From: Chryseobacterium sp. | Lineage (GTDB): Bacteria > Bacteroidota > Bacteroidia > Flavobacteriales > Weeksellaceae | Direction of reading: 5' to 3' | DNA length: 10,533 bases | Assembly (NCBI GenBank): GCA_003852805.1 | Contig: RDDY01000141.1 | Span: forward strand, 1-10,533 | Shown here: in pieces, positions 1-10,533 of the stretch | How the letters are laid out: every line of letters begins with the position of its first letter | Position numbering within the stretch: the first letter of the stretch is position 1 | Program-made: the position numbers and the translations under genes | Notes under the pieces: model-generated | Told to the model about the DNA's origin: nothing | Database searches by the model: none | Seen by the model: the letters and a program-made list of their open reading frames with translations, nothing else

Positions 1-26
1 TCTGCGGCAATTGCTATCTTTTTCAT
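1..26 (-). CDS. 5' end of a leftward gene, possibly ribose-5-phosphate isomerase B (partial)
   Basis: Only eight full codons are inside the window. They read MKKIAIAA followed by a codon starting GA, so Asp or Glu comes next. A good TAnnTTTG box lies 20 nt upstream of the ATG, which supports a real start. The N-terminus resembles RpiB proteins, which open with a short beta strand followed by DHAG. An acidic residue directly after the alanines fits that better than a signal peptide does. RpiB interconverts ribose 5-phosphate and ribulose 5-phosphate in the cytoplasm. Eight residues cannot settle identity, so the product name is a guess, while the presence of a gene start is fairly well supported. 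It diverges from pgk across the proposed origin. Confidence 0.45.
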
Positions 27-45
27 AAACTGATTGCTAATTGGA

Positions 46-53
46 CAAATTTA
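46..53 (-). promoter_or_regulatory. Bacteroidota -7 box for the left-edge gene
   Basis: On the minus strand this reads TAAATTTG, a full match to the Bacteroidota sigma-ABfr consensus TAnnTTTG. It lies 19 nt before the ATG at 26, which would give a leader of roughly 12 to 15 nt. I do not see a convincing TTG -33 element at the usual distance, so this call rests on the -7 box alone. Confidence 0.45.
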
Positions 54-92
54 CTTTAAAAAAACCGAGCCCGCATTTTATCGCCGGTTAAA

Positions 93-101
93 TGTTGATA
101 A
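93..101 (-). promoter_or_regulatory. DnaA box, one mismatch
   Basis: The plus strand reads TGTTGATAA against the consensus TGTGGATAA, differing at the fourth base. It lies 22 bp from the next box at 115, about two helical turns, in the same orientation. It would be a weak site on its own. Confidence 0.4.
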
Positions 102-114
102 AAGCAACAATGGC

Positions 115-123
115 TGTGGAAAA
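115..123 (-). promoter_or_regulatory. DnaA box, one mismatch
   Basis: The plus strand reads TGTGGAAAA, the complement of TTTTCCACA, which differs from TTATCCACA at one base. The same variant occurs in inverted orientation at 384..392, so these two sites form an outer inverted pair around the perfect boxes. Confidence 0.5.
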
Positions 124-284
124 CTTACCGGAACCCGTGCTTTATTCTCTCGTGAAATTTCCGTATGAAATACAGGGAGCGTGCCGGAGTGTCGAATTTT
201 ATCCCGGAGACTTCCCAGAAAATCAATGCGCGATGCGTAAAAACTTTTTGCCCAATAACAGACCATGAAGAACGGGGTGCCAAT

Positions 285-293
285 TGTGGATAA
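285..293 (-). promoter_or_regulatory. DnaA box, perfect
   Basis: TGTGGATAA is the exact complement of the DnaA consensus TTATCCACA. It is followed directly by an AT-rich run (291..320) and, 42 bp downstream, by a second perfect box in the same orientation. Confidence 0.75.
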
Positions 294-326
294 TTACCTA
301 TTGTATTGTATTTAAACAGTTTACGA

Positions 327-335
327 TGTGGATAA
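327..335 (-). promoter_or_regulatory. DnaA box, perfect
   Basis: This is an exact TGTGGATAA. A degenerate copy, TGTTGATAG with two mismatches, begins 12 bp later at 339..347. Close in-phase spacing of a strong and a weak site is the kind of arrangement on which DnaA filaments nucleate. Confidence 0.75.
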
Positions 336-383
336 ACCTGTTGATAGCCGGTTACTATTTGCTGTTAACTCTTACCGAGAAAC

Positions 384-392
384 TTTTCCACA
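384..392 (+). promoter_or_regulatory. DnaA box, one mismatch, inverted
   Basis: TTTTCCACA is in the opposite orientation to the other boxes. It lies about 30 bp before the most AT-rich segment (421..460), so it could direct DnaA toward that segment if that is the unwinding element. Confidence 0.5.
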
Positions 393-420
393 TATCCGCA
401 ACCCTACAACAGTATGCAAC

Positions 421-460
421 ATTCTTTTTCTTTTTATAAATAGAAATATAATGCTGTTAA
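421..460. other. AT-rich segment, candidate DNA unwinding element
   Basis: Only 6 of 40 bases are G or C, with pyrimidine and purine tracts around a TATAAATA core. Together with 291..320 it is one of two easily melted stretches beside the DnaA boxes. I see no clear DnaA-trio repeat, so which of the two would open first cannot be read from sequence. Confidence 0.4.
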
Positions 461-519
461 TGGTTGTGGGCTGTTCATTACTTTTCGGTCGAAGATTTCA
501 GTCGCCGCCTTTTATGTGC

Positions 520-527
520 TATTTTTG
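520..527 (+). promoter_or_regulatory. Bacteroidota -7 box for pgk
   Basis: TATTTTTG is a full match to TAnnTTTG and ends 24 nt before the pgk ATG at 552. This predicts a leader of about 15 to 20 nt. No clear TTG -33 element is seen at the usual spacing, and there is no Shine-Dalgarno sequence, which is common in this phylum. pgk thus appears to have its own promoter at the origin edge. Confidence 0.5.
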
Positions 528-551
528 CAATAGAAATAAATCCAAGTATTG

Positions 552-1742
552 ATGAAAACAGTAAACGATTTTGACTTTGCCGGCAAGAAGGCGCTGGTGC
601 GCGTAGACTTTAACGTTCCGCAGGATGAACAACTGCGCGTGACCGACGCCACACGGATAGCTGCCGTAAAGCCGACGGTTGAAAAAATATTGAACGATGG
701 CGGAGCCGTTATTCTGATGACGCATCTGGGCCGGCCGAAAGGTGAAAACACGGATAAATTCTCACTGCGCAACATTATCGATGAAGTCAGCCGCGTTCTG
801 GGGCGCGAGGTTATTTTCTGTGATAATTGTACAGATGCGCGCGCACAAGAGTTGAGCGATAAATTGCAGCCGGGCGAAATTTTACTGTTGGAAAATCTGC
901 GTTTCCATAAAGAAGAGGAAGCAGGAGACTCTGCTTTTGCAGAGAAACTTTCTAAGCTGGGCGACATTTATGTGAACGATGCCTTTGGTACGGCGCACCG
1001 CAAGCACGCTTCTACGGCAGTGATTGCAGAGTATTTCCCCGAGAATAAATGCTTCGGATTATTGATGGCGCAGGAACTGGAAGCGATTGACAAGGTATTG
1101 CACAAAGGAGAAAAGCCCATAACGGCGATATTGGGCGGCTCCAAGGTTTCAACCAAAATTACCATCATAGAAAACATTTTACCCAAGGTCGACAACTTGA
1201 TTATCGGCGGTGGGATGGCGTTTACATTTATCAAAGCCAAGGGCGGAAACATCGGCAGTTCATTGGTGGAGGAAGATAAGTTGGATCTTGCTCAACAAAT
1301 TATTGCGATGGCTGAGACGCAGAAAGTTAACGTTTACCTGCCCGTAGATGTTGTGGCGGCAGATAAATTCTCTGAGGATACAGAGACCCAAATTTGCGAC
1401 GCTTATGAAATCCCCGACGGTTGGATGGGGCTGGATGTAGGTCCTCAATCGAATAAATTGTTCCACGATGTCTTGTTAAGTTCCCGCACCATTTTGTGGA
1501 ACGGACCGCTTGGTGTTTTTGAAATGAAGAAATTTGCCGAAGGAACCATAAAACTTGGCGACAGTATCGCAGAAGCTACCCGACTGGGCGCATTCTCCTT
1601 GGTGGGCGGCGGCGACAGTGTGGCGTTTGTCAAGCAATTCGGTTACGATGACAAAGTGAGTTATGTCTCTACCGGCGGCGGTGCCATGCTGGAAAGTTTG
1701 GAGGGCAAAGAGTTGCCTGGTGTAGCCGCTGTGAACAGCTAA
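552..1742 (+). CDS. pgk: Phosphoglycerate kinase
   Basis: This cytoplasmic glycolytic enzyme transfers phosphate from 1,3-bisphosphoglycerate to ADP, making ATP and 3-phosphoglycerate. The 396-residue product has the usual length and both lobes. The N-lobe substrate motifs are VRVDFNVP (16-23) and MTHLGRPKG (56-64). The nucleotide-side motifs are GGSKVSTK (195-202), GGGMAFTF (219-226), WNGPLGVFE (316-324), GGGDS (352-356) and STGGGAMLE (373-381). I chose the ATG at 552 and not the TTG one codon earlier, because the family begins with this short MKTV-like strand and TTG starts are rare here. It is transcribed alone, away from the candidate origin, with its own -7 box, and ends at the hairpin at 1761. 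No missing residues or frameshifts are seen. The identification is certain from the motifs. Confidence 0.98.
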   Translation: MKTVNDFDFAGKKALVRVDFNVPQDEQLRVTDATRIAAVKPTVEKILNDGGAVILMTHLGRPKGENTDKFSLRNIIDEVSRVLGREVIFCDNCTDARAQELSDKLQPGEILLLENLRFHKEEEAGDSAFAEKLSKLGDIYVNDAFGTAHRKHASTAVIAEYFPENKCFGLLMAQELEAIDKVLHKGEKPITAILGGSKVSTKITIIENILPKVDNLIIGGGMAFTFIKAKGGNIGSSLVEEDKLDLAQQIIAMAETQKVNVYLPVDVVAADKFSEDTETQICDAYEIPDGWMGLDVGPQSNKLFHDVLLSSRTILWNGPLGVFEMKKFAEGTIKLGDSIAEATRLGAFSLVGGGDSVAFVKQFGYDDKVSYVSTGGGAMLESLEGKELPGVAAVNS

Positions 1743-2651: not shown

Positions 2652-2667
2652 TGTTTCACGTGGAACT
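2652..2667. promoter_or_regulatory. parS: parS-like ParB-binding site, imperfect
   Basis: TGTTTCACGTGGAACT differs from the chromosomal parS consensus TGTTTCACGTGAAACA at two positions. Only one of these is inside the 14-bp core. It fills the gap between the methyltransferase gene and mnmG, and its right end overlaps the mnmG stop codon (2666..2668). A nearly intact second copy beside a perfect one makes a chance match unlikely. Confidence 0.75.
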
Positions 2668-4528
2668 ATCGCCCGAGGTACACAAGCAATACATTGATAT
2701 CCGCCGGCGAGACACCGCTTATACGGCCTGCCTGAGCGATTGTTTCAGGTTGTAAAGATTGCAGTTTTTGAACCGCTTCCGAAGATAAACTGCGCACTGT
2801 TTTATAGTCAAAATTATTTGGGATTTTGATGTTCTCCAATCGGTGCAGCTTCGCCACGTTTTCTTTTTCCTTCTCAATGTATCCTTTGTATTTGATGTTG
2901 ATCTCGGCTTGCTCAATCACTTCATCCGTATACTTCTCCAGTTCGGTTTTTATTTCGGGTACTGCGGAAAGTTTCTGTAGATCGATATTCGGGCGCGTAA
3001 GTATTTGTGCCACTTTGAATGATTGATCTATTTTATTTGAACTGTTTTCTTCGAGAATGGGATTAACGGTCTCAGGCTTAATGGATAATAATCGTAGAAA
3101 GCTTTCAAGATTATCGCTTTGTTGAAGTTTTTCTTCAACCTTTCTCATACGGTCTTCATTGGCCAGCCCCATCTTGTAGGATTTCTCTGTCAAACGGATG
3201 TCGGCATTATCTTGACGCAGCAACAATCTGTATTCCGCGCGAGAGGTAAACATTCTGTACGGTTCCTCAGTTCCTTTTGTGATCAGGTCGTCGATCAATA
3301 CGCCAATGTAAGCTTCGTCACGACTCAGTGTAAACGCTTCTTTGCCATGCACTTTGTTGTGTGCATTGATACCGGCGATTAAACCTTGTCCTGCCGCTTC
3401 CTCATATCCCGTAGTGCCGTTGATCTGTCCCGCGAAGTAGAGATTGGCAATTAGCTTGGTTTCAAGGGTTTGCCTCAACTGGGTAGGAGGGAAGTAGTCA
3501 TACTCGATGGCATAACCGGGACGGAAGACTTTTGCGTTTTCAAAACCGGGAACCTGCCGTAAGGCTTGCATCTGAACTTCTTCAGGCAGAGACGAACTGA
3601 AACCGTTTACATAGATTTCCACGGTGTTCCACCCTTCGGGCTCAACAAACAGCTGATGGCGGTCACGCTCTGCGAAGCGGTTTATTTTATCTTCGATGCT
3701 TGGGCAATATCTGGGCCCGGTACTTTGTATGGTACCGTTGAACATCGGCGATCGATCAAAGCCCGAGCGTAAAATATCGTGTACCGTGTTGTTGGTATAG
3801 GTAATATAGCAGCTGCGTTGCTTTGTAAGCTTCGGGGTATCGGTATAGGAAAACTTTCTCGGATTCGCATCGCCGGGCTGTTCCTCCATTTTTGTGTAAT
3901 CTAAGCTACGGCCATCAACACGCGGAGGCGTTCCTGTTTTCATTCGACCTGATTGGAAGCCGAGATCGTTCAACTGCTCGGTAATGCCGTAGGCTTTGGG
4001 CTCGCCCATTCTGCCGCCGCCGAGTTGTTTGTCGCCTACATGAATCAGTCCGTTCAGAAACGTACCGTTTGTCAGAACAACCGCTTTACCGCGAATTTCA
4101 ATACCGAGGGATGTGACAACACCGACGACTGTATCGTTTTCGATAATCAGGCTTTTCACCATATCTTGGAAAAAATCCAGGTTCGGTGTCTGTTCCAGCA
4201 TCAGTCGCCACTCTTCGGCAAAGAGCATACGGTCGTTTTGGGTGCGCGGACTCCACATTGCGGGGCCTTTTGAGAGGTTCAGCATCTTAAACTGTATGGC
4301 ACTCCTATCGGCTACAATACCCGAATATCCGCCCAATGCATCGATTTCTCGTACAATCTGTCCTTTCGCTATTCCTCCCATTGCAGGATTGCAGCTCATC
4401 TGACCGATGGTCTGCATATTCATGGTAACGAGCATTGTCTTTGAGCCCAGGTTGGCGGCTGCGGCTGCGGCTTCACAACCCGCGTGGCCACCACCCACGA
4501 CAATTACGTCATATATTTCGTTAATCAT
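2666..4528 (-). CDS. mnmG: tRNA uridine-5-carboxymethylaminomethyl modification enzyme MnmG (GidA)
   Basis: MnmG acts with the GTPase MnmE to build the cmnm5 group on wobble uridine 34 of certain tRNAs, using FAD, a methylene-tetrahydrofolate carbon and glycine or ammonium. The 620-residue length is normal. It opens with the FAD dinucleotide fold VVGGGHAGCEAA (10-21). The family signatures SCNPAMGGIAKGQIVREIDA (45-64) and KTGTPPRVDGR (197-207) follow, then AGQINGTTGYEEAAGQG near residue 380 and an alpha-helical C-terminal domain that contacts MnmE and tRNA. The ATG at 4528 places the FAD fold at the usual distance from the start. It lies 24 nt after ybeY in the same operon and is bracketed by parS sites: one forms its leader and one overlaps its stop. 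mnmG is a frequent neighbour of replication origins. Confidence 0.98.
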   Translation of the reverse strand: MINEIYDVIVVGGGHAGCEAAAAAANLGSKTMLVTMNMQTIGQMSCNPAMGGIAKGQIVREIDALGGYSGIVADRSAIQFKMLNLSKGPAMWSPRTQNDRMLFAEEWRLMLEQTPNLDFFQDMVKSLIIENDTVVGVVTSLGIEIRGKAVVLTNGTFLNGLIHVGDKQLGGGRMGEPKAYGITEQLNDLGFQSGRMKTGTPPRVDGRSLDYTKMEEQPGDANPRKFSYTDTPKLTKQRSCYITYTNNTVHDILRSGFDRSPMFNGTIQSTGPRYCPSIEDKINRFAERDRHQLFVEPEGWNTVEIYVNGFSSSLPEEVQMQALRQVPGFENAKVFRPGYAIEYDYFPPTQLRQTLETKLIANLYFAGQINGTTGYEEAAGQGLIAGINAHNKVHGKEAFTLSRDEAYIGVLIDDLITKGTEEPYRMFTSRAEYRLLLRQDNADIRLTEKSYKMGLANEDRMRKVEEKLQQSDNLESFLRLLSIKPETVNPILEENSSNKIDQSFKVAQILTRPNIDLQKLSAVPEIKTELEKYTDEVIEQAEINIKYKGYIEKEKENVAKLHRLENIKIPNNFDYKTVRSLSSEAVQKLQSLQPETIAQAGRISGVSPADINVLLVYLGR

Positions 4529-4535
4529 AAAGGGA

Positions 4536-4553
4536 ATGTTTCACGTGAAACAT
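4536..4553. promoter_or_regulatory. parS: parS centromere site, perfect palindrome
   Basis: ATGTTTCACGTGAAACAT is an 18-bp perfect palindrome that contains the exact 16-bp chromosomal parS consensus. ParB (Spo0J) binds such sites, spreads over flanking DNA and, with ParA and SMC, segregates the origin region. It occupies most of the 24-nt gap between ybeY and mnmG and touches the last base of the ybeY stop codon. In the operon mRNA it lies in the translation-initiation region of mnmG, so ParB binding or the palindrome itself could affect expression. A chance exact 16-mer match in 10.5 kb is of the order of one in 10^5 to 10^6. Confidence 0.93.
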
Positions 4554-4970: not shown

Positions 4971-7100
4971 TTAAAACCAGTGCCCGAGTACAACGCTGAA
5001 AATACCACTGTTATTTTTGAAGCCGTAATTATAACCCAACCGTAGCTGGCCAAACGGAGAATTGTAGCCTACTTCTGCGCCCGCACTTGTATACTTGAAC
5101 TTTATAAAGTCATTGTTTTCAAAATCATCAAATAAGTTGGCGATGCTGAAGTTGCCCGTTACAAAGTAATTTTTCTTCAGACGCAATTGAAGGCTGTTGC
5201 CCATGGCCAACGCATTTTGACCTTCTTGTTGACCAAAGTAAAATCCGGGAAATCTTACCATGTTTCCAAGATTCTGTTCAAAGACACCGCCCAAACGGTA
5301 GCGATAAAAGTAGGGTGTATCGCCGAAACTGATTCCGGCAAAGCCTGACACTTTATACGTCAGCCGATCGGAAATCGGGAAGTTGATGCGCAGGTCTGCA
5401 TTTATCTGAGCGCTTTTGTCGTCTTCTACTTTGTCAAATGTATCAAGCAGTTTGCCTACGAGATCCAAAGAAAAACCCCGACTCGAGAATTCTTGACGAT
5501 TGCGCGTATCGGTACGCAGAAAAACGTAGGGATTAAGATGCTTCTCCCGACTGTGAACATTGGAGTTGAATATATCGTAACTCAGACCCGCGCCAACGGC
5601 ATAGCGATCACGCCAAGTAGATTGTATGAACGCTTCATTTCGGTACCATTGGCGGGTATCTGTGTACGCTCCTTTCGAGTCGCGCAGAGCATAACTCATT
5701 CCCGTCGAGAACAGCCCGAACCCCGGAATGTAACCGTTATCGATTAAATAATTGAAGTAATAGCGCGGTCGGTCGCCAACCACCACATCCAGCGAAGATG
5801 TGGAATTGTTAAATAGCAGACGCCGTACCGTAATATTCCCGAGAAGACCGGTTTTGAACACATCGTCATAATGCAAACCGAACTTCAGGTAAAAGCGTGC
5901 ATCGTCTTCATTCACGAAAAGTCTTAGTTTATTGTGGCCGTTTCCTTGTTGAATTTCATAGTTTATGATTCGATAATTATCGGTTGCGTACAGTTTGTCG
6001 ATCATCTTATTGACATCGGCATAACTGAGCAATGCCGGAAGCTTCAGACCCATCTTTCCCGCAATATAATCACGGTTATAGATATCGTTGTTTTCCACTT
6101 CAAACTCATCGATTTTATATACCGCAGTATACATCGGATTGTATCTGAATTGTCTGGGGAAAGGATCCTTCGGCAACTGCTCAAGGACCGAGCTGTACTT
6201 TAAAGCTTCATCATAACCCGCGCGTATCAGCTCTTTTTTATTGTCGAAGCTGGTAACGCCGTATCCCTTCAGATCGGGTGTCATGTTGATATCGGTAAAT
6301 TCAATCTGCCGACCTGTTTCATTGACAATACCGAATGTGATGATTTGGTCTAAAATACTGACGATATTGTTCAGCTGCTTTCGATCGGAGAGGCCTTGTC
6401 CCAAGTTGACGCCCACAATAAAGTTCATCCCTTTATCGCGCAATGGTTTCGACGGAAAATTGATCGCGATGCCGCCGTCCACATACAAACTGTCGTCTAT
6501 CTTAACCGGTTCCAGCAAAGACGGGAAGGCGGAACTCGCCATAATAGCCTTGGCCAGATCGCCGTGCTCCAAGATTTTCGCTTTGCCTGTTTCGATGTTC
6601 GTGGCAACAGCAAAGAAAGGCGTCGGAAGCTTACTGAAATCTTTCTTGTCAGAGACCCTGCTCAACAATTCCTTTAACAGAAAAATATTGCGCTGACCGC
6701 TGCTCAGTGACGTGGGCAGTTGGACCTTGCCGTTCTTGATCGGGAACTGCAACAGATATTTGTCCACCCGTTTACTGAAAAACGGCATCTCCAGCCGGTC
6801 TTTGCTGTCAGACAAAGCGCCGTAGATATCGGTGTTCAAGACAATGTTTTCTATATCTTTACCGCTGTATCCCGATGCATAAAGACCGCCGATTATTGCG
6901 CCCATACTGGTACCGCCCAAATAATCGATCTTTACACCAATGGAGTCCAATACCTGCAACGCGCCGATGTGGGCAAAACCCTTGGCACCGCCGCCGCTGA
7001 GTGAAAGGCCTACCTTGGGCCGTGCGGGGATTTTTATCGAATCTTGCGCGTCTGCAGCGAAGGAAGCCACCAATAACGCAGCTGTAAAGATTTTCTTCAT
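4971..7100 (-). CDS. Patatin-like phospholipase with POTRA and outer-membrane beta-barrel (PlpD/type Vd-like)
   Basis: A signal peptide (1-18, probable cleavage after ADA) leads into a patatin lipase domain of roughly 28-310. This carries the oxyanion loop GGGAKG (36-41), the nucleophile motif GTSMG with Ser65, and the second dyad residue Asp208 in DGG, so it should be catalytically competent. A POTRA-like segment (about 327-398) follows. Residues 400-709 look like a 16-strand-type surface antigen (D15/BamA/TpsB) barrel that ends in Trp-Phe, the usual outer-membrane terminal signature. This architecture matches the PlpD/FplA group, in which the lipase is tethered to or exported by its own barrel and cleaves phospholipids or lysophospholipids. 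Length (709) is normal for Bacteroidota members. Its ATG overlaps the murF/alr stop by one base (TGATG), which suggests coupled translation. The lipid substrate and the side of the membrane cannot be read from sequence. Confidence 0.93.
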   Translation of the reverse strand: MKKIFTAALLVASFAADAQDSIKIPARPKVGLSLSGGGAKGFAHIGALQVLDSIGVKIDYLGGTSMGAIIGGLYASGYSGKDIENIVLNTDIYGALSDSKDRLEMPFFSKRVDKYLLQFPIKNGKVQLPTSLSSGQRNIFLLKELLSRVSDKKDFSKLPTPFFAVATNIETGKAKILEHGDLAKAIMASSAFPSLLEPVKIDDSLYVDGGIAINFPSKPLRDKGMNFIVGVNLGQGLSDRKQLNNIVSILDQIITFGIVNETGRQIEFTDINMTPDLKGYGVTSFDNKKELIRAGYDEALKYSSVLEQLPKDPFPRQFRYNPMYTAVYKIDEFEVENNDIYNRDYIAGKMGLKLPALLSYADVNKMIDKLYATDNYRIINYEIQQGNGHNKLRLFVNEDDARFYLKFGLHYDDVFKTGLLGNITVRRLLFNNSTSSLDVVVGDRPRYYFNYLIDNGYIPGFGLFSTGMSYALRDSKGAYTDTRQWYRNEAFIQSTWRDRYAVGAGLSYDIFNSNVHSREKHLNPYVFLRTDTRNRQEFSSRGFSLDLVGKLLDTFDKVEDDKSAQINADLRINFPISDRLTYKVSGFAGISFGDTPYFYRYRLGGVFEQNLGNMVRFPGFYFGQQEGQNALAMGNSLQLRLKKNYFVTGNFSIANLFDDFENNDFIKFKYTSAGAEVGYNSPFGQLRLGYNYGFKNNSGIFSVVLGHWF

Positions 7101-9526
7101 CAGTCTTTGATATAAATCCGTTTTACCCGGCGACTGATCGACGTAAGAACCTCATACGGAATGGTCTCACAATAATCAGCAAATTGCCGAAGGCCGGGAC
7201 TGCCGTTAAAAAGCGTGACTTCTCCACCTTCAATAATTTGATCGTCGCCGATGTCTACCATCAGCATATCCATGCAGACGGTGCCGACAATGGGGTACAG
7301 TTGATTCCGGATACCAACAAATCCCTTACCATTGCCTATGCGGCGCGGGATGCCGTCGGCGTAACCCACAGGTATGGTAGCCACGCGCGTGCTTTTGTTT
7401 GCTTTAAACCGTCGCCCGTAGCCCACCGTTTCGCCGATATTGATTTCGGATATCTGCGAAATAACCGTTTTGAAAGCAACGGCCGATTGCAGTTTTTTCT
7501 GCAATTCCTCATTTGCGGAAATGCCGATCATGCCGATACCAATGCGCACCATATCCAGTTGGTACTCGGGATAATTGGCTATACCCGGCGAGTTCAGTAT
7601 ATGACGCAACGGCCGAGGTTCGATATCGGCGCACAACTGTTCGGACATCCGTAGGAATGTTGACGCCTGCTCGTGGACATAATTCTTGTGCTCGGGCATA
7701 TCAGCTGTGGCCAAATGCGAAAATACGCCGACAACTCGCAGAATATCGGTGTTGATTTTATTCTTTAGTTCGGAGATATCATCTTCTTTAAAGCCAAGAC
7801 GATGCATTCCTGTTTCCAGTTTGATATGCACAGGGTAGGGCAGCGCGGCTCCTTTTTGCAGCAACGCTTCTTGGAAGGCTTCCAACACACGGAAACTGTA
7901 AATTTCAGGTTCCAGTTGATAATCGATTATCGTGCTGTAACTGCTCTGTTCGGGGTTCATAATCATGATCGGAACGGTGATTCCGTTTTTGCGCAGTTCG
8001 GCACCTTCATCCGCATAAGCAACGGTGAGGTAATCGATATGGTGATGCTGCAGAAACTCGGAAACCTGCAAGCTGCCGAGGCCGTACGCATTTGCTTTAA
8101 CCATCGCCATAATCTTGGTGGACGGTTTCAGCATGTCTCGGTGCTTTTTGATATTGTGCAAGATCGCGTTCAGGTTTACTTCCAACACCGTGTCGTGCGA
8201 CTGCAATTCCAACAGCTGCTGAACTTTTTCCAGCTCAAACTTGCGGGCGCCTTTTAAAAGTATCAGATGATTTTCTATTGTTCTTAGTTCTCGGCTGTCA
8301 ACGAGTTCGGCAGTAGTACGAAATGCCGATGTTTCGGCAGTTAAGTGCTCTTGGAGGAAATGAATCTGTTCGCCCACCAGAAGAACAATGTCGAAGTTCT
8401 GCGCATTGATCCACCGGGCAACGTCCGGATAATCGCCTTGTTCAATGCCCGGGATGTCGGTCAGCACAAGCGCGGTATTGGGTTTCCGATATTGGCTTAC
8501 GGCGCTGAGTGCAATCTTAAGCGAATCTTTATCTAAGTTGTAAGAGTCATTGATAATCAAATTATTTCGTGCGCCGTGAATGCTTTCCATGCGCATCTCT
8601 ATCGGCCGAATCTGATCCAATCTCCGTACAATTTCATCATCCGCGATGTCCAACTGTTTCAACACGGCAATCACGGCCAGCGCATTCATCAGCGTGGCCT
8701 CGTCTCGGTTTCGGATTTTCATCTGAAAGCTTCCGCCGGGATAATGAACGGAGACCTCTTTTCCGGAAAAATTGAAATGCACATCGTTATCGGGCTGCAA
8801 ACCGAACGAGATCAATTTACGGTCACGGTACAAATCCATAACGCGCCGCCGTACCGGTTCCTGGTCACCGTTATAAATAATTGTCCGGCTGTTTTTGAAG
8901 AATTTCAGTTTTTCTTCCAGCAACTCTTGGGCATTGTGGAAATTCTCCAAATGTGCCGCGCCGATGTGGGTAAGGATGCCGATGGTGGGCGACACTACAT
9001 CGGCCAGTTTTTGCATTTCACCGCGCAGCGAGATGCCGGCTTCCAATAATATGACTTCGTGCCGTGAGTCGGCTTGCAATACAGAGAGCGGAAAACCGAT
9101 TTGTGAATTATAGCTGCGCGGGCTTTTGGCCACGGTATGATCGTCTGCCAGGCATTGGTACAGCCATTCTTTTACAATGGTCTTACCGTTGCTGCCTGTA
9201 ATGCCTATGGTCAGACCGTGCATTTTATTGATGTGGAATGCGGCTAGGCGCTGTATAAATCCGATACTGTCGTCTACTTGCAGCCAAGTGATTTCTTGGT
9301 CGAATCGTGAAGGCTGCTCGCTCACAATCACGACGATTCCTTTCTCGATGGCGGAATCAATATACGCTGCGCCGTCACTGTTCTGCGTACGAAAAGCTAT
9401 AAACGCAGTGTCTTCGGTGGAAAATATACGCCGCGAATCAAAAGCGAAATGGCATACCGACGCATAGGGATTTCCCGTCAACGTTGCTCCTGTAATCTGC
9501 GCCAGTTCCTTTGCCGTATATCTCAT
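7100..9526 (-). CDS. murF/alr: Bifunctional MurF-like ligase / alanine racemase fusion
   Basis: This 808-residue cytoplasmic fusion is characteristic of Bacteroidota. Residues 1-440 form a Mur ligase. They contain an N-terminal substrate domain, the ATP loop GITGSNGKT (108-116), the central-domain segment HIGAAHLENF (187-196) and NDSYNLDKDS (326-335) in the C-terminal domain. MurF adds D-Ala-D-Ala to the UDP-MurNAc tripeptide. Residues 446-808 form a PLP-dependent alanine racemase with Lys477 in MVKANAYGLG as the PLP lysine, catalytic Tyr703 in VGYGR, then GYADG (721-725) and CMDM (751-754). It makes D-Ala, the precursor of the substrate of the first half. The motif usually written DAYNANP in stand-alone MurF is altered to NDSYNLDKD. 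Many Bacteroidota also have a separate murF, so the ligase half may not be the only or main MurF. Its ATG overlaps the tdk stop by 4 nt. Confidence 0.96.
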   Translation of the reverse strand: MRYTAKELAQITGATLTGNPYASVCHFAFDSRRIFSTEDTAFIAFRTQNSDGAAYIDSAIEKGIVVIVSEQPSRFDQEITWLQVDDSIGFIQRLAAFHINKMHGLTIGITGSNGKTIVKEWLYQCLADDHTVAKSPRSYNSQIGFPLSVLQADSRHEVILLEAGISLRGEMQKLADVVSPTIGILTHIGAAHLENFHNAQELLEEKLKFFKNSRTIIYNGDQEPVRRRVMDLYRDRKLISFGLQPDNDVHFNFSGKEVSVHYPGGSFQMKIRNRDEATLMNALAVIAVLKQLDIADDEIVRRLDQIRPIEMRMESIHGARNNLIINDSYNLDKDSLKIALSAVSQYRKPNTALVLTDIPGIEQGDYPDVARWINAQNFDIVLLVGEQIHFLQEHLTAETSAFRTTAELVDSRELRTIENHLILLKGARKFELEKVQQLLELQSHDTVLEVNLNAILHNIKKHRDMLKPSTKIMAMVKANAYGLGSLQVSEFLQHHHIDYLTVAYADEGAELRKNGITVPIMIMNPEQSSYSTIIDYQLEPEIYSFRVLEAFQEALLQKGAALPYPVHIKLETGMHRLGFKEDDISELKNKINTDILRVVGVFSHLATADMPEHKNYVHEQASTFLRMSEQLCADIEPRPLRHILNSPGIANYPEYQLDMVRIGIGMIGISANEELQKKLQSAVAFKTVISQISEINIGETVGYGRRFKANKSTRVATIPVGYADGIPRRIGNGKGFVGIRNQLYPIVGTVCMDMLMVDIGDDQIIEGGEVTLFNGSPGLRQFADYCETIPYEVLTSISRRVKRIYIKD

Positions 9527-10107
9527 TCTTCTTTATTCATTTCTTCGAAAAAAACCTTGCGGCTCACCGCTTCGTAGCTCTCGGTTTCTCCCAGTTGAAC
9601 CAACTCTTGACCGTTGGTGGTGCGCAGTGAATAGTTGGCCAGATTGCCCGTACGCCGGCAAATCGCGTGAACTTTGGTTACGTATTCTGCGGTTGCCATC
9701 AGCGCCGGCATCGGGCCGAAAGGCCGTCCGCGGAAATCCATATCCAGACCGGCAACCACCACTCTGATTCCGTTGTTGGCCAAATCGTTTGCCACTTCTA
9801 CAATACTGTCATCAAAGAACTGTGCCTCGTCAATCCCCACCACATCGCAGGAGCTGCAAAGCAGCAGAATTTCTTGCGGATTATTTACGGCTGTGCTGCG
9901 GATCTTGTTTCGGTTGTGAGAGACGATATCCTCTTCTGAATAACGAACATCCAACGCAGGTTTGAAGATCTCCACCTGCTGTCCGGCCATTTCCGCTCTG
10001 CGCAGACGGCGGATCAATTCTTCGGTTTTCCCCGAAAACATTGAGCCACAGATAACCTCCATCCAGCCGCTCTGCCGCGCATGGTTAATTGTATTTTCTA
10101 GAAACAT
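9523..10107 (-). CDS. tdk: Thymidine kinase (type II)
   Basis: Thymidine kinase phosphorylates thymidine to dTMP with ATP, the salvage route to dTTP. The 194-residue protein has the P-loop GSMFSGKTEE (21-30), the Walker B/base segment GIDEAQFF (91-98) and the late motif LGETESYEA, which forms part of the thymidine-binding lasso. The classical type II enzyme binds structural zinc through two Cys pairs. Here the first pair is reduced to C-R-R-T (HAICRRTGN) and the second is replaced by SRKV, so the zinc site appears to be lost. I recall the same pattern in related Bacteroidota. I kept the ATG at 10107 because a GW(I/M)EVICGSMFSGK lead-in with a 15-residue extension is usual in the phylum. This is the first gene of the minus-strand operon, with a 4-nt ATGA overlap into murF/alr. 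Confidence 0.96.
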   Translation of the reverse strand: MFLENTINHARQSGWMEVICGSMFSGKTEELIRRLRRAEMAGQQVEIFKPALDVRYSEEDIVSHNRNKIRSTAVNNPQEILLLCSSCDVVGIDEAQFFDDSIVEVANDLANNGIRVVVAGLDMDFRGRPFGPMPALMATAEYVTKVHAICRRTGNLANYSLRTTNGQELVQLGETESYEAVSRKVFFEEMNKEE

Positions 10108-10135
10108 TTGTTAAATTAGCACAGTAAACCTGAGT

Positions 10136-10143
10136 CAAAATTA
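10136..10143 (-). promoter_or_regulatory. Bacteroidota -7 box for the tdk operon
   Basis: The minus strand reads TAATTTTG, a full match to TAnnTTTG, 28 nt before the tdk ATG. It sits in the 60-base gap between tdk and the divergent gene at 10168. A TTG (minus strand, 10159..10157) lies upstream but only 13 nt away, shorter than the usual 17-20 nt, so the -33 element is uncertain. It would drive all six minus-strand genes. Confidence 0.5.
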
Positions 10144-10167
10144 CGCAAAAAAATACCAAGGATTGTT

Positions 10168-10533
10168 ATGCAGCACCTGTCGGAGATCAGGACAAAGATC
10201 CTGCAAGAAGTGAAAAATGCCGCAGCGCAAATAGCGGCTACCGAGACGGTGCCGGGACTCATTTCCAAGTATCAGACCGTTCAAGAAATTTTGGAGAAAG
10301 TCGCATTCCTGAAGCTGTTGAATGAGGAGCAAATCTATTTCACACAGAAAGAACCCGAGGCAGAGATAGCAGAAACCGTCAACCCCGACCATTTGCGTAC
10401 CGAACAAGCGGCCCAAGCAGAGAAAACCGCCGTAGAAGCCTACGATGAAGGAAAAACAAAAGAGGAGGCGATAAACCTTGCCGTTTCCGCCGTTTTTATC
10501 GGCTGCCTTATCGGTTTCGGAAACAGGGGTTTC
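10168..10533 (+). CDS. Uncharacterised acidic, helical protein, N-terminal part (cut by window end)
   Basis: An open frame of 122 codons runs to the window edge without a stop. The start is supported by an AAGGA sequence (10158..10162) 5 nt before the ATG and by its position divergent to tdk. Residues 1-60 (MQHLSEIRTKILQEV and onward) have heptad-like hydrophobic spacing and look like a coiled coil or helical bundle. Residues 60-100 are rich in Glu, Ala and Lys and look disordered. The last 20 residues turn hydrophobic (INLAVSAVFIGCLIGFG), which could be a membrane segment or the result of a frameshift near the edge. I recall function-unassigned proteins with similar N-termini beside tdk in Sphingobacteriales, but cannot verify this. 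No enzyme motif is visible. Confidence 0.75.
   Translation, partial: MQHLSEIRTKILQEVKNAAAQIAATETVPGLISKYQTVQEILEKVAFLKLLNEEQIYFTQKEPEAEIAETVNPDHLRTEQAAQAEKTAVEAYDEGKTKEEAINLAVSAVFIGCLIGFGNRGF

Follow-up and report, generated by a model that had tools for sequence, protein, structure and literature searches.

When a cluster of DnaA boxes is found in front of a metabolic gene and not beside dnaA, the question arises whether it marks the chromosomal origin of replication. We addressed this question for the gap upstream of pgk in a Chryseobacterium genome, which is available as a MAG of 2.16 Mb in 388 contigs. The window analyzed here is a stretch of 10,533 bases, which is contig C206 or the first 10,533 bases of it. 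The gap is bordered on the left by rpiB, with the start codon at position 26 on the minus strand, and positions 26..3 translate to MKKIAIAA; the gene at the rpiB place of a relative (L032) matches PF02502 with an E-value of 8e-59. The named relatives with the most similar pgk belong to Chryseobacterium, Kaistella and further Weeksellaceae genera, and we accordingly treat the genome as a member of Weeksellaceae. Tblastn placed rpiB on the left side of pgk, at a distance of up to 1.5 kb, in 21 of 22 named loci of about 21 kb and in 24 of 28 family loci of about 4 kb. After pgk, the genes for a methyltransferase, mnmG, ybeY, a patatin-Omp85 fusion, a murF-alr fusion and tdk follow on the minus strand, and the plus-strand ORF starting at 10168 is without a Pfam match. 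The two fusions, murF-alanine racemase at 7100-9526 and patatin with an Omp85-type barrel at 4971-7100, have ORFs of similar length at the homologous place in three relatives (G004, G030 and G031). The coordinates of all features of interest are given in Table 1.

Table 1. Features in and around the rpiB-pgk gap (positions in the window; relatives are the 38 of the non-redundant set)
Feature	Position	Strand	Remark
rpiB start (ribose 5-phosphate isomerase B)	1..26	-	left border of gap; truncated at contig end
Candidate oriC gap, divergent rpiB/pgk	27..551		525 bases
Weak one-mismatch DnaA box TTATCAACA	93..101	-	at most 1 mismatch in 4/38 relatives, poorly conserved
One-mismatch DnaA box TTTTCCACA	115..123	-	best conserved: at most 1 mismatch in 27/38, perfect in 12/38
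Perfect DnaA box TTATCCACA	285..293	-	at most 1 mismatch in 18/38 relatives
Perfect DnaA box TTATCCACA	327..335	-	at most 1 mismatch in 8/38 relatives
Inverted one-mismatch DnaA box TTTTCCACA	384..392	+	at most 1 mismatch in 23/38, at most 2 in 37/38
CTACAACA element	404..411	+	11 bases after inverted box 384
Probable DNA unwinding element	411..462		least stable stretch of gap
Likely pgk promoter element TAnnTTTG	520..527	+	32 bases before pgk start
pgk, phosphoglycerate kinase	552..1742	+	ATG at 552
parS site (ParB centromere), 2 mismatches to 16-mer	2652..2667		2.1 kb from candidate oriC
mnmG (gidA)	2666..4528	-	PF01134, E 8e-166
parS site, perfect	4537..4552		4.0 kb from candidate oriC

A first-pass annotation had described this gap as 525 bases long with two perfect boxes (285 and 327) and three boxes with one mismatch (93, 115 and 384), and we recovered all five at the same positions between the rpiB start codon and the pgk ATG. 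Its further description of the gap also held: the two strong boxes share the minus orientation, the box at 384 is inverted (plus) and adjoins an AT-rich segment, and there are two AT-rich stretches, with 70-75% AT at 281-340 and 72-85% AT at 401-460 in windows of 40 bases. The expectation of about 0.08 perfect boxes by chance is close to the value of about 0.09 that we obtained from base composition. In the 10,533 bases we found a sixth box with at most one mismatch (8965-8973, within murF-alr), while the other five form a cluster within 300 bp of non-coding DNA, as expected for an oriC. For the whole window, shuffles gave a mean of 2.25 boxes at this threshold and reached six or more in 5 of 200 cases. 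The number of boxes alone is only moderately unusual; what stands out is their clustering and the presence of two perfect copies. Across the MAG the motif TTWTNCACA was found 189 times compared to 101 times for the reversed control. Because box-type motifs are enriched genome-wide, single boxes mean little and the box count alone is modest evidence; the case therefore rests on the relatives. As a side observation, TTATCCACA occurs 159 times in the whole genome of G004 (42 times for the reversed control), with 50 of 100 among the matches listed located at 2.68-3.16 Mb, and 21-27 times each in G030, G038, G046 and G048.

With the own genome divided into that many contigs, we read the strand skew in relatives. 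Four single-contig genomes were sampled and a two-arm model was fitted, for which the best R2 values were 0.26-0.38. For the complete genome of the same genus (G004) the best-fit origin was located 1.5 kb from pgk on a grid of 20 kb, and the best terminus 23 kb from dnaA. In two other genera, the fitted origin of G030 was 79 kb from pgk, with the pgk position being second best of 93, and that of G031 was 83 kb away, with the pgk position on rank 16 of 109. The skew of G013 is noisy and its fitted origin was 526 kb from pgk (rank 32 of 137), which speaks against an origin in the pgk gap; four added stretches of this genome (2.44, 2.62, 3.00 and 3.08 Mb), read directly and outside the two-arm fit, gave 0.004, -0.012, -0.026 and 0.065. 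A switch in strand skew was thus observed in relatives, at or near the site in three of the four genomes, and the GC-skew check proposed by the first-pass annotation passes on balance.

The contiguous cumulative skew gave a somewhat different picture. Its minima in G004 (3,731,104) and G030 (1,449,094) are both located about 10 kb from the gap, beyond tdk, and share one homologous gene boundary at which a block of six genes changes coding strand; the minimum of G031 (1,629,077) is about 73 kb from pgk. The first two minima would fit an origin about 10 kb to the right, at the boundary between tdk and the divergent ORF (about 10108-10167), with the boxes before pgk serving as an auxiliary DnaA site. 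However, a minimum is expected at exactly this boundary because the six-gene block is coded against the fork. When we corrected for the coding strand by comparing the skew at codon position 3 of the six-gene block with that of genes on the same strand, the block matched the arm that is expected for a switch at the gap in all three genomes tested (bootstrap 0.93, 0.98 and 0.95, with six block genes per genome), and on this ground the minimum 10 kb away was set aside as a mark of the origin. The boundary moreover spans no more than 60 bases of the window, in which no box with at most one mismatch was found, and we regard it as a very unlikely origin. The co-orientation of long ORFs left and right of the gap is weak or absent (0.58/0.62 in G004, 0.57/0.49 in G030 and 0.37/0.70 in G031).

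The gap is not located next to dnaA, a position that is common for oriC and not required. The own dnaA was found on contig C260 (8,125 bases); the encoded DnaA matches PF00308 and PF08299 (L175:6616-8124, truncated at the contig end) and has the box-binding C-terminal domain. We also considered dnaA as the origin locus and rejected it: its contig contains one perfect box, at 1686 and about 5 kb from dnaA, and an origin placed at dnaA explains almost nothing of the skew in any of the four relatives (R2 0.00-0.08). For a broader view we compared the dnaA-pgk distance in 34 of 45 single-contig family genomes, namely those with both positions among the matches listed (left out were G059, G071, G072, G074, G081, G087, G089, G094, G100, G105 and G143); genome size was a rounded value for 29 of the 34. 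The distance ranged from 0.41 to 0.99 of half a chromosome with a median of 0.67, dnaA was located in the pgk-distal half of the chromosome (>0.5) in 31 of the 34, and all 10 genus means were above 0.5. As the genomes are related, two genera account for 24 of the 34 and pgk is a proxy for the origin, we regard this as a pattern that deserves testing and not as a proof.

Next to the skew, the centromere points to the same region. We searched for parS with the pattern GTTYCACGTGRAAC, whose reversed control was without any match, and found sites in 15 of 16 family genomes, one or two in each and three in the own genome; G029 had no match. In 13 of the 16 genomes the sites are located within 3.5 kb of pgk, which in the own genome applies to two of the three, and in G026 and G032 the distance is 13-16 kb. 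The third site of the own genome is on another contig (G000:C194:422-435). It had been claimed earlier that parS sites within 4.3 kb give independent support to an origin here, and this support turned out to be stronger than stated, as each genome has hardly any other such site and the locus carries them in 13 of the 16 genomes. The location of parS near the candidate origin is that of a ParABS centromere region. ParB (TIGR00180) was detected in four of five genomes searched (G004, G013, G030 and G031) and not found in the own MAG, which is incomplete. At a distance of about 1 kb in front of parB, which is at 2179441-2179971 on the minus strand in G004 and at 2295191 on the plus strand in G030, we observed an inverted pair of perfect boxes with starts 21-22 bases apart (G004 2180975-2181004, G030 2294111-2294141). 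This pair is perhaps part of the parAB promoter, with a possible control of the segregation genes by DnaA.

We also searched 20 genomes that belong to the same order but not to this family; parS is present in 18 of them and absent from two (G045 and G057). In all 18 a site is located at most about 150 bases from mnmG, and in 11 of them on both sides of it, from which it follows that centromere and mnmG are coupled in much of the order. Family f3 shows arrays of such sites: in G037 (C2:129799-132115) six of seven are within 280 bases beside mnmG, and G052 has four beside mnmG (C1:261-559) and five on another contig (C7:29842-32030). Two Weeksellaceae loci (L049 and L069) have no mnmG in about 21 kb around pgk, and L049 still has a perfect box before pgk. 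Thus, even within Weeksellaceae mnmG and pgk can be apart from each other.

To evaluate the boxes in relatives we compared the 750 bases before pgk (16.5 kb in total) with the remaining sequence of about 450 kb in 22 named Weeksellaceae loci of about 21 kb. We counted 13 perfect boxes before pgk compared to 4 in all of the rest, and 80 compared to 170 when one mismatch was allowed. L041, L051 (contig ends near pgk) and L069 were omitted from this count; in the first two, all perfect boxes (three and one, respectively) are inside the gap. We then aligned 53 family gaps, composed of the own gap, 28 from loci of about 4 kb and 24 from loci of about 21 kb, omitting L069 and the six most distant pgk matches (G012, G019, G020, G023, G033 and G035), and reduced them to 38 relatives with less than 80% mutual identity. 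Every gap position was scanned for boxes with at most one mismatch, with a tolerance of two bases and with orientation kept. Because the window's sequence serves as the reference of the alignment, its own boxes are somewhat favoured; with this in mind, the counts in Table 1 for 115, 285 and 327 (minus) and for 384 (plus) are to be compared with a mean background of 0.19 rows on the minus strand and 0.17 on the plus strand, with highest background values of 6 and 8, respectively, the latter being a site near 271-276 that other members use. Conservation of the annotated boxes in relatives is therefore confirmed for these four, which are far above background, while the weak box 93 is weakly conserved.

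Some family members are without good boxes, namely G030, G026, G032 and L069. There is no perfect box in the gap of G030, which is close by pgk identity, nor before pgk in G026 and G032. L069 (OX460916.1, Weeksellaceae bacterium MIP2422, pgk at 9998) still has rpiB beside pgk and one box with at most one mismatch before pgk, and its 21 kb contain neither a perfect box nor a parS site, with mnmG and parS both missing within about 10 kb of pgk; the origin of this bacterium may have moved. Outside of the family, a search for four box variants in the 700 bases before pgk gave no match in eight loci (L031 and L056-L062), and in G038, G046 and G048 there was no perfect box within 23 kb of mnmG.

We further analyzed the stability of the gap. 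The eight least stable 40-mers start at 411-423, just beyond inverted box 384, so that an AT-rich, easily melted segment is present beside the boxes, as in an oriC. In 21 of the 38 relatives the least stable 40-mer lies 30-50 bases after the start of the homologous box, and in 17 it is upstream of this box. The CTACAACA element was found at most 60 bases from the box start as an exact copy in 17 of 53 gaps and with one mismatch in 20, and was absent in 16 (counts without a shuffle control). In the passages available, the basal unwinding system of the B. subtilis type is described as a DnaA box followed by at least three DnaA-trios within 16 bp (PMC8287927). On the side after box 384, the only one examined and with the strand choice being inferred, such a module ((NAN)x3 read 3'-5') is absent, and after the homologous box it was found in 6 of 38 relatives compared to 14% of shuffles. 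The element TAnnTTTG at 520-527 presumably represents the -7 type promoter consensus of Bacteroidota. In 35 of 38 relatives it was observed at most 90 bases from the pgk ATG, compared to 8% in shuffles, and with the element this close to the pgk start, box array and pgk promoter are two separate units.

This separation bears on the possibility that the boxes form a DnaA-controlled promoter or a titration site (datA/DARS-like in function) for rpiB/pgk that is only near the origin. DnaA boxes do occur in promoters as well, and the box pairs before parB make it probable that G004 and G030 have DnaA sites away from the origin. However, 127 bases separate the pgk promoter element from the nearest box, the combination of a conserved inverted box with weak duplex next to it corresponds to the anatomy of an origin, and skew and parS agree on the rpiB-pgk region; we consider this explanation very unlikely as well. 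That the cluster arose by chance in AT-rich intergenic DNA is practically negligible, since the box number reached in a few shuffles and the genome-wide enrichment are contradicted by positions and orientations that repeat in many genera and by the excess of perfect boxes before pgk.

Taken together, our sequence comparisons make it highly likely that the rpiB-pgk gap is the chromosomal oriC of the source bacterium. The placement of the origin beside pgk and away from dnaA, as first suggested by the boxes, is supported by the skew of the relatives, by box conservation and by the location of parS, and this site is very probably common to many Weeksellaceae. By analogy with established origin biology, the DnaA encoded on C260 would bind four or five boxes, three or four of them in one orientation (93, 115, 285 and 327) and one inverted (384) at the border of the weakest DNA. 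A DnaA oligomer built from box 384 and oriented toward 411-462 would melt the AT-rich segment, where the helicase would be loaded. Forks would then depart both ways, co-directional with rpiB and pgk, and ParB bound to the two nearby parS sites would separate the new origins. More tentatively, it is possible that Weeksellaceae share one inherited layout, rpiB-oriC-pgk, mostly beside parS-mnmG-parS, with a trio-free opening by a lineage-specific inverted box, CTACAACA and a T-rich element, and with dnaA kept in the terminus half, so that the dose of the initiator would fall with faster growth.

Origins remote from dnaA are already known in Bacteroidota and in Weeksellaceae. We take Elizabethkingia meningoseptica to belong to the same family as the source bacterium. 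For strain G4076 Ori-Finder predicted an oriC of 649 bp (740,720-741,368) with three DnaA boxes of at most one mismatch and two AT-rich elements, and dnaA is located about 1.87 Mb from it (PMC8994065). The rpiB-pgk gap is similar in its box cluster, its AT-rich elements and the remote dnaA; this is a prediction for one strain, likened by description, and the neighbouring genes are not named in the passages at hand, which leaves its identity with the rpiB-pgk gap not established. For Ornithobacterium hominis (Weeksellaceae) both skew and read depth back the origin, and dnaA is located near the terminus (PMC10353427). The latter is what we fitted for G004, and the likeness is again one of description, as the corresponding passages do not name the origin flanks. 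Prevotella intermedia belongs to another order. According to the passages from its genome paper, which cites DoriC, the oriC of Bacteroidetes is commonly far from dnaA (PMC4755523). Its own oriC is likewise described as a box cluster at a skew switch and far from dnaA, with the location likened by description. The predicted oriC of Flavobacterium columnare was, in the passage concerned, taken from DoriC (PMC8092290). The oriC of E. coli is described as lying between gidA (mnmG) and mioC (PMC10225481). It resembles the gap in being near mnmG and in having boxes beside an unwinding element. Unlike in E. coli, mnmG is here 2.1 kb from the gap, whose immediate neighbours are rpiB and pgk, and parS, which E. 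coli is not known to have, is present at the locus. None of the passages from the Bacteroidota papers names rpiB or pgk. In the open literature, with DoriC being outside of the search, we found no paper that treats oriC of Chryseobacterium together with either pgk or GC skew, and among the papers listed for Bacteroidetes origins no title or beginning of an abstract names pgk beside an origin. Our analysis adds the common anatomy, the location of the gap and its connection with parS-mnmG-parS, a part of which DoriC may already contain.

For a family that comprises environmental as well as clinical genera, the finding offers a precise and testable origin. In this family dnaA is often chosen as the starting point of an assembly, and we observed it within the first 550 bases or so of the sequence in several single-contig relatives, while the origin is likely to be located about one megabase from there. 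The pgk promoter, the boxes, the unwinding element and the parS sites may serve as landmarks for the construction of replicating plasmids or for coverage-based growth rates in metagenomes. For the biology of the family, the location raises the question why dnaA is far from oriC in Weeksellaceae.
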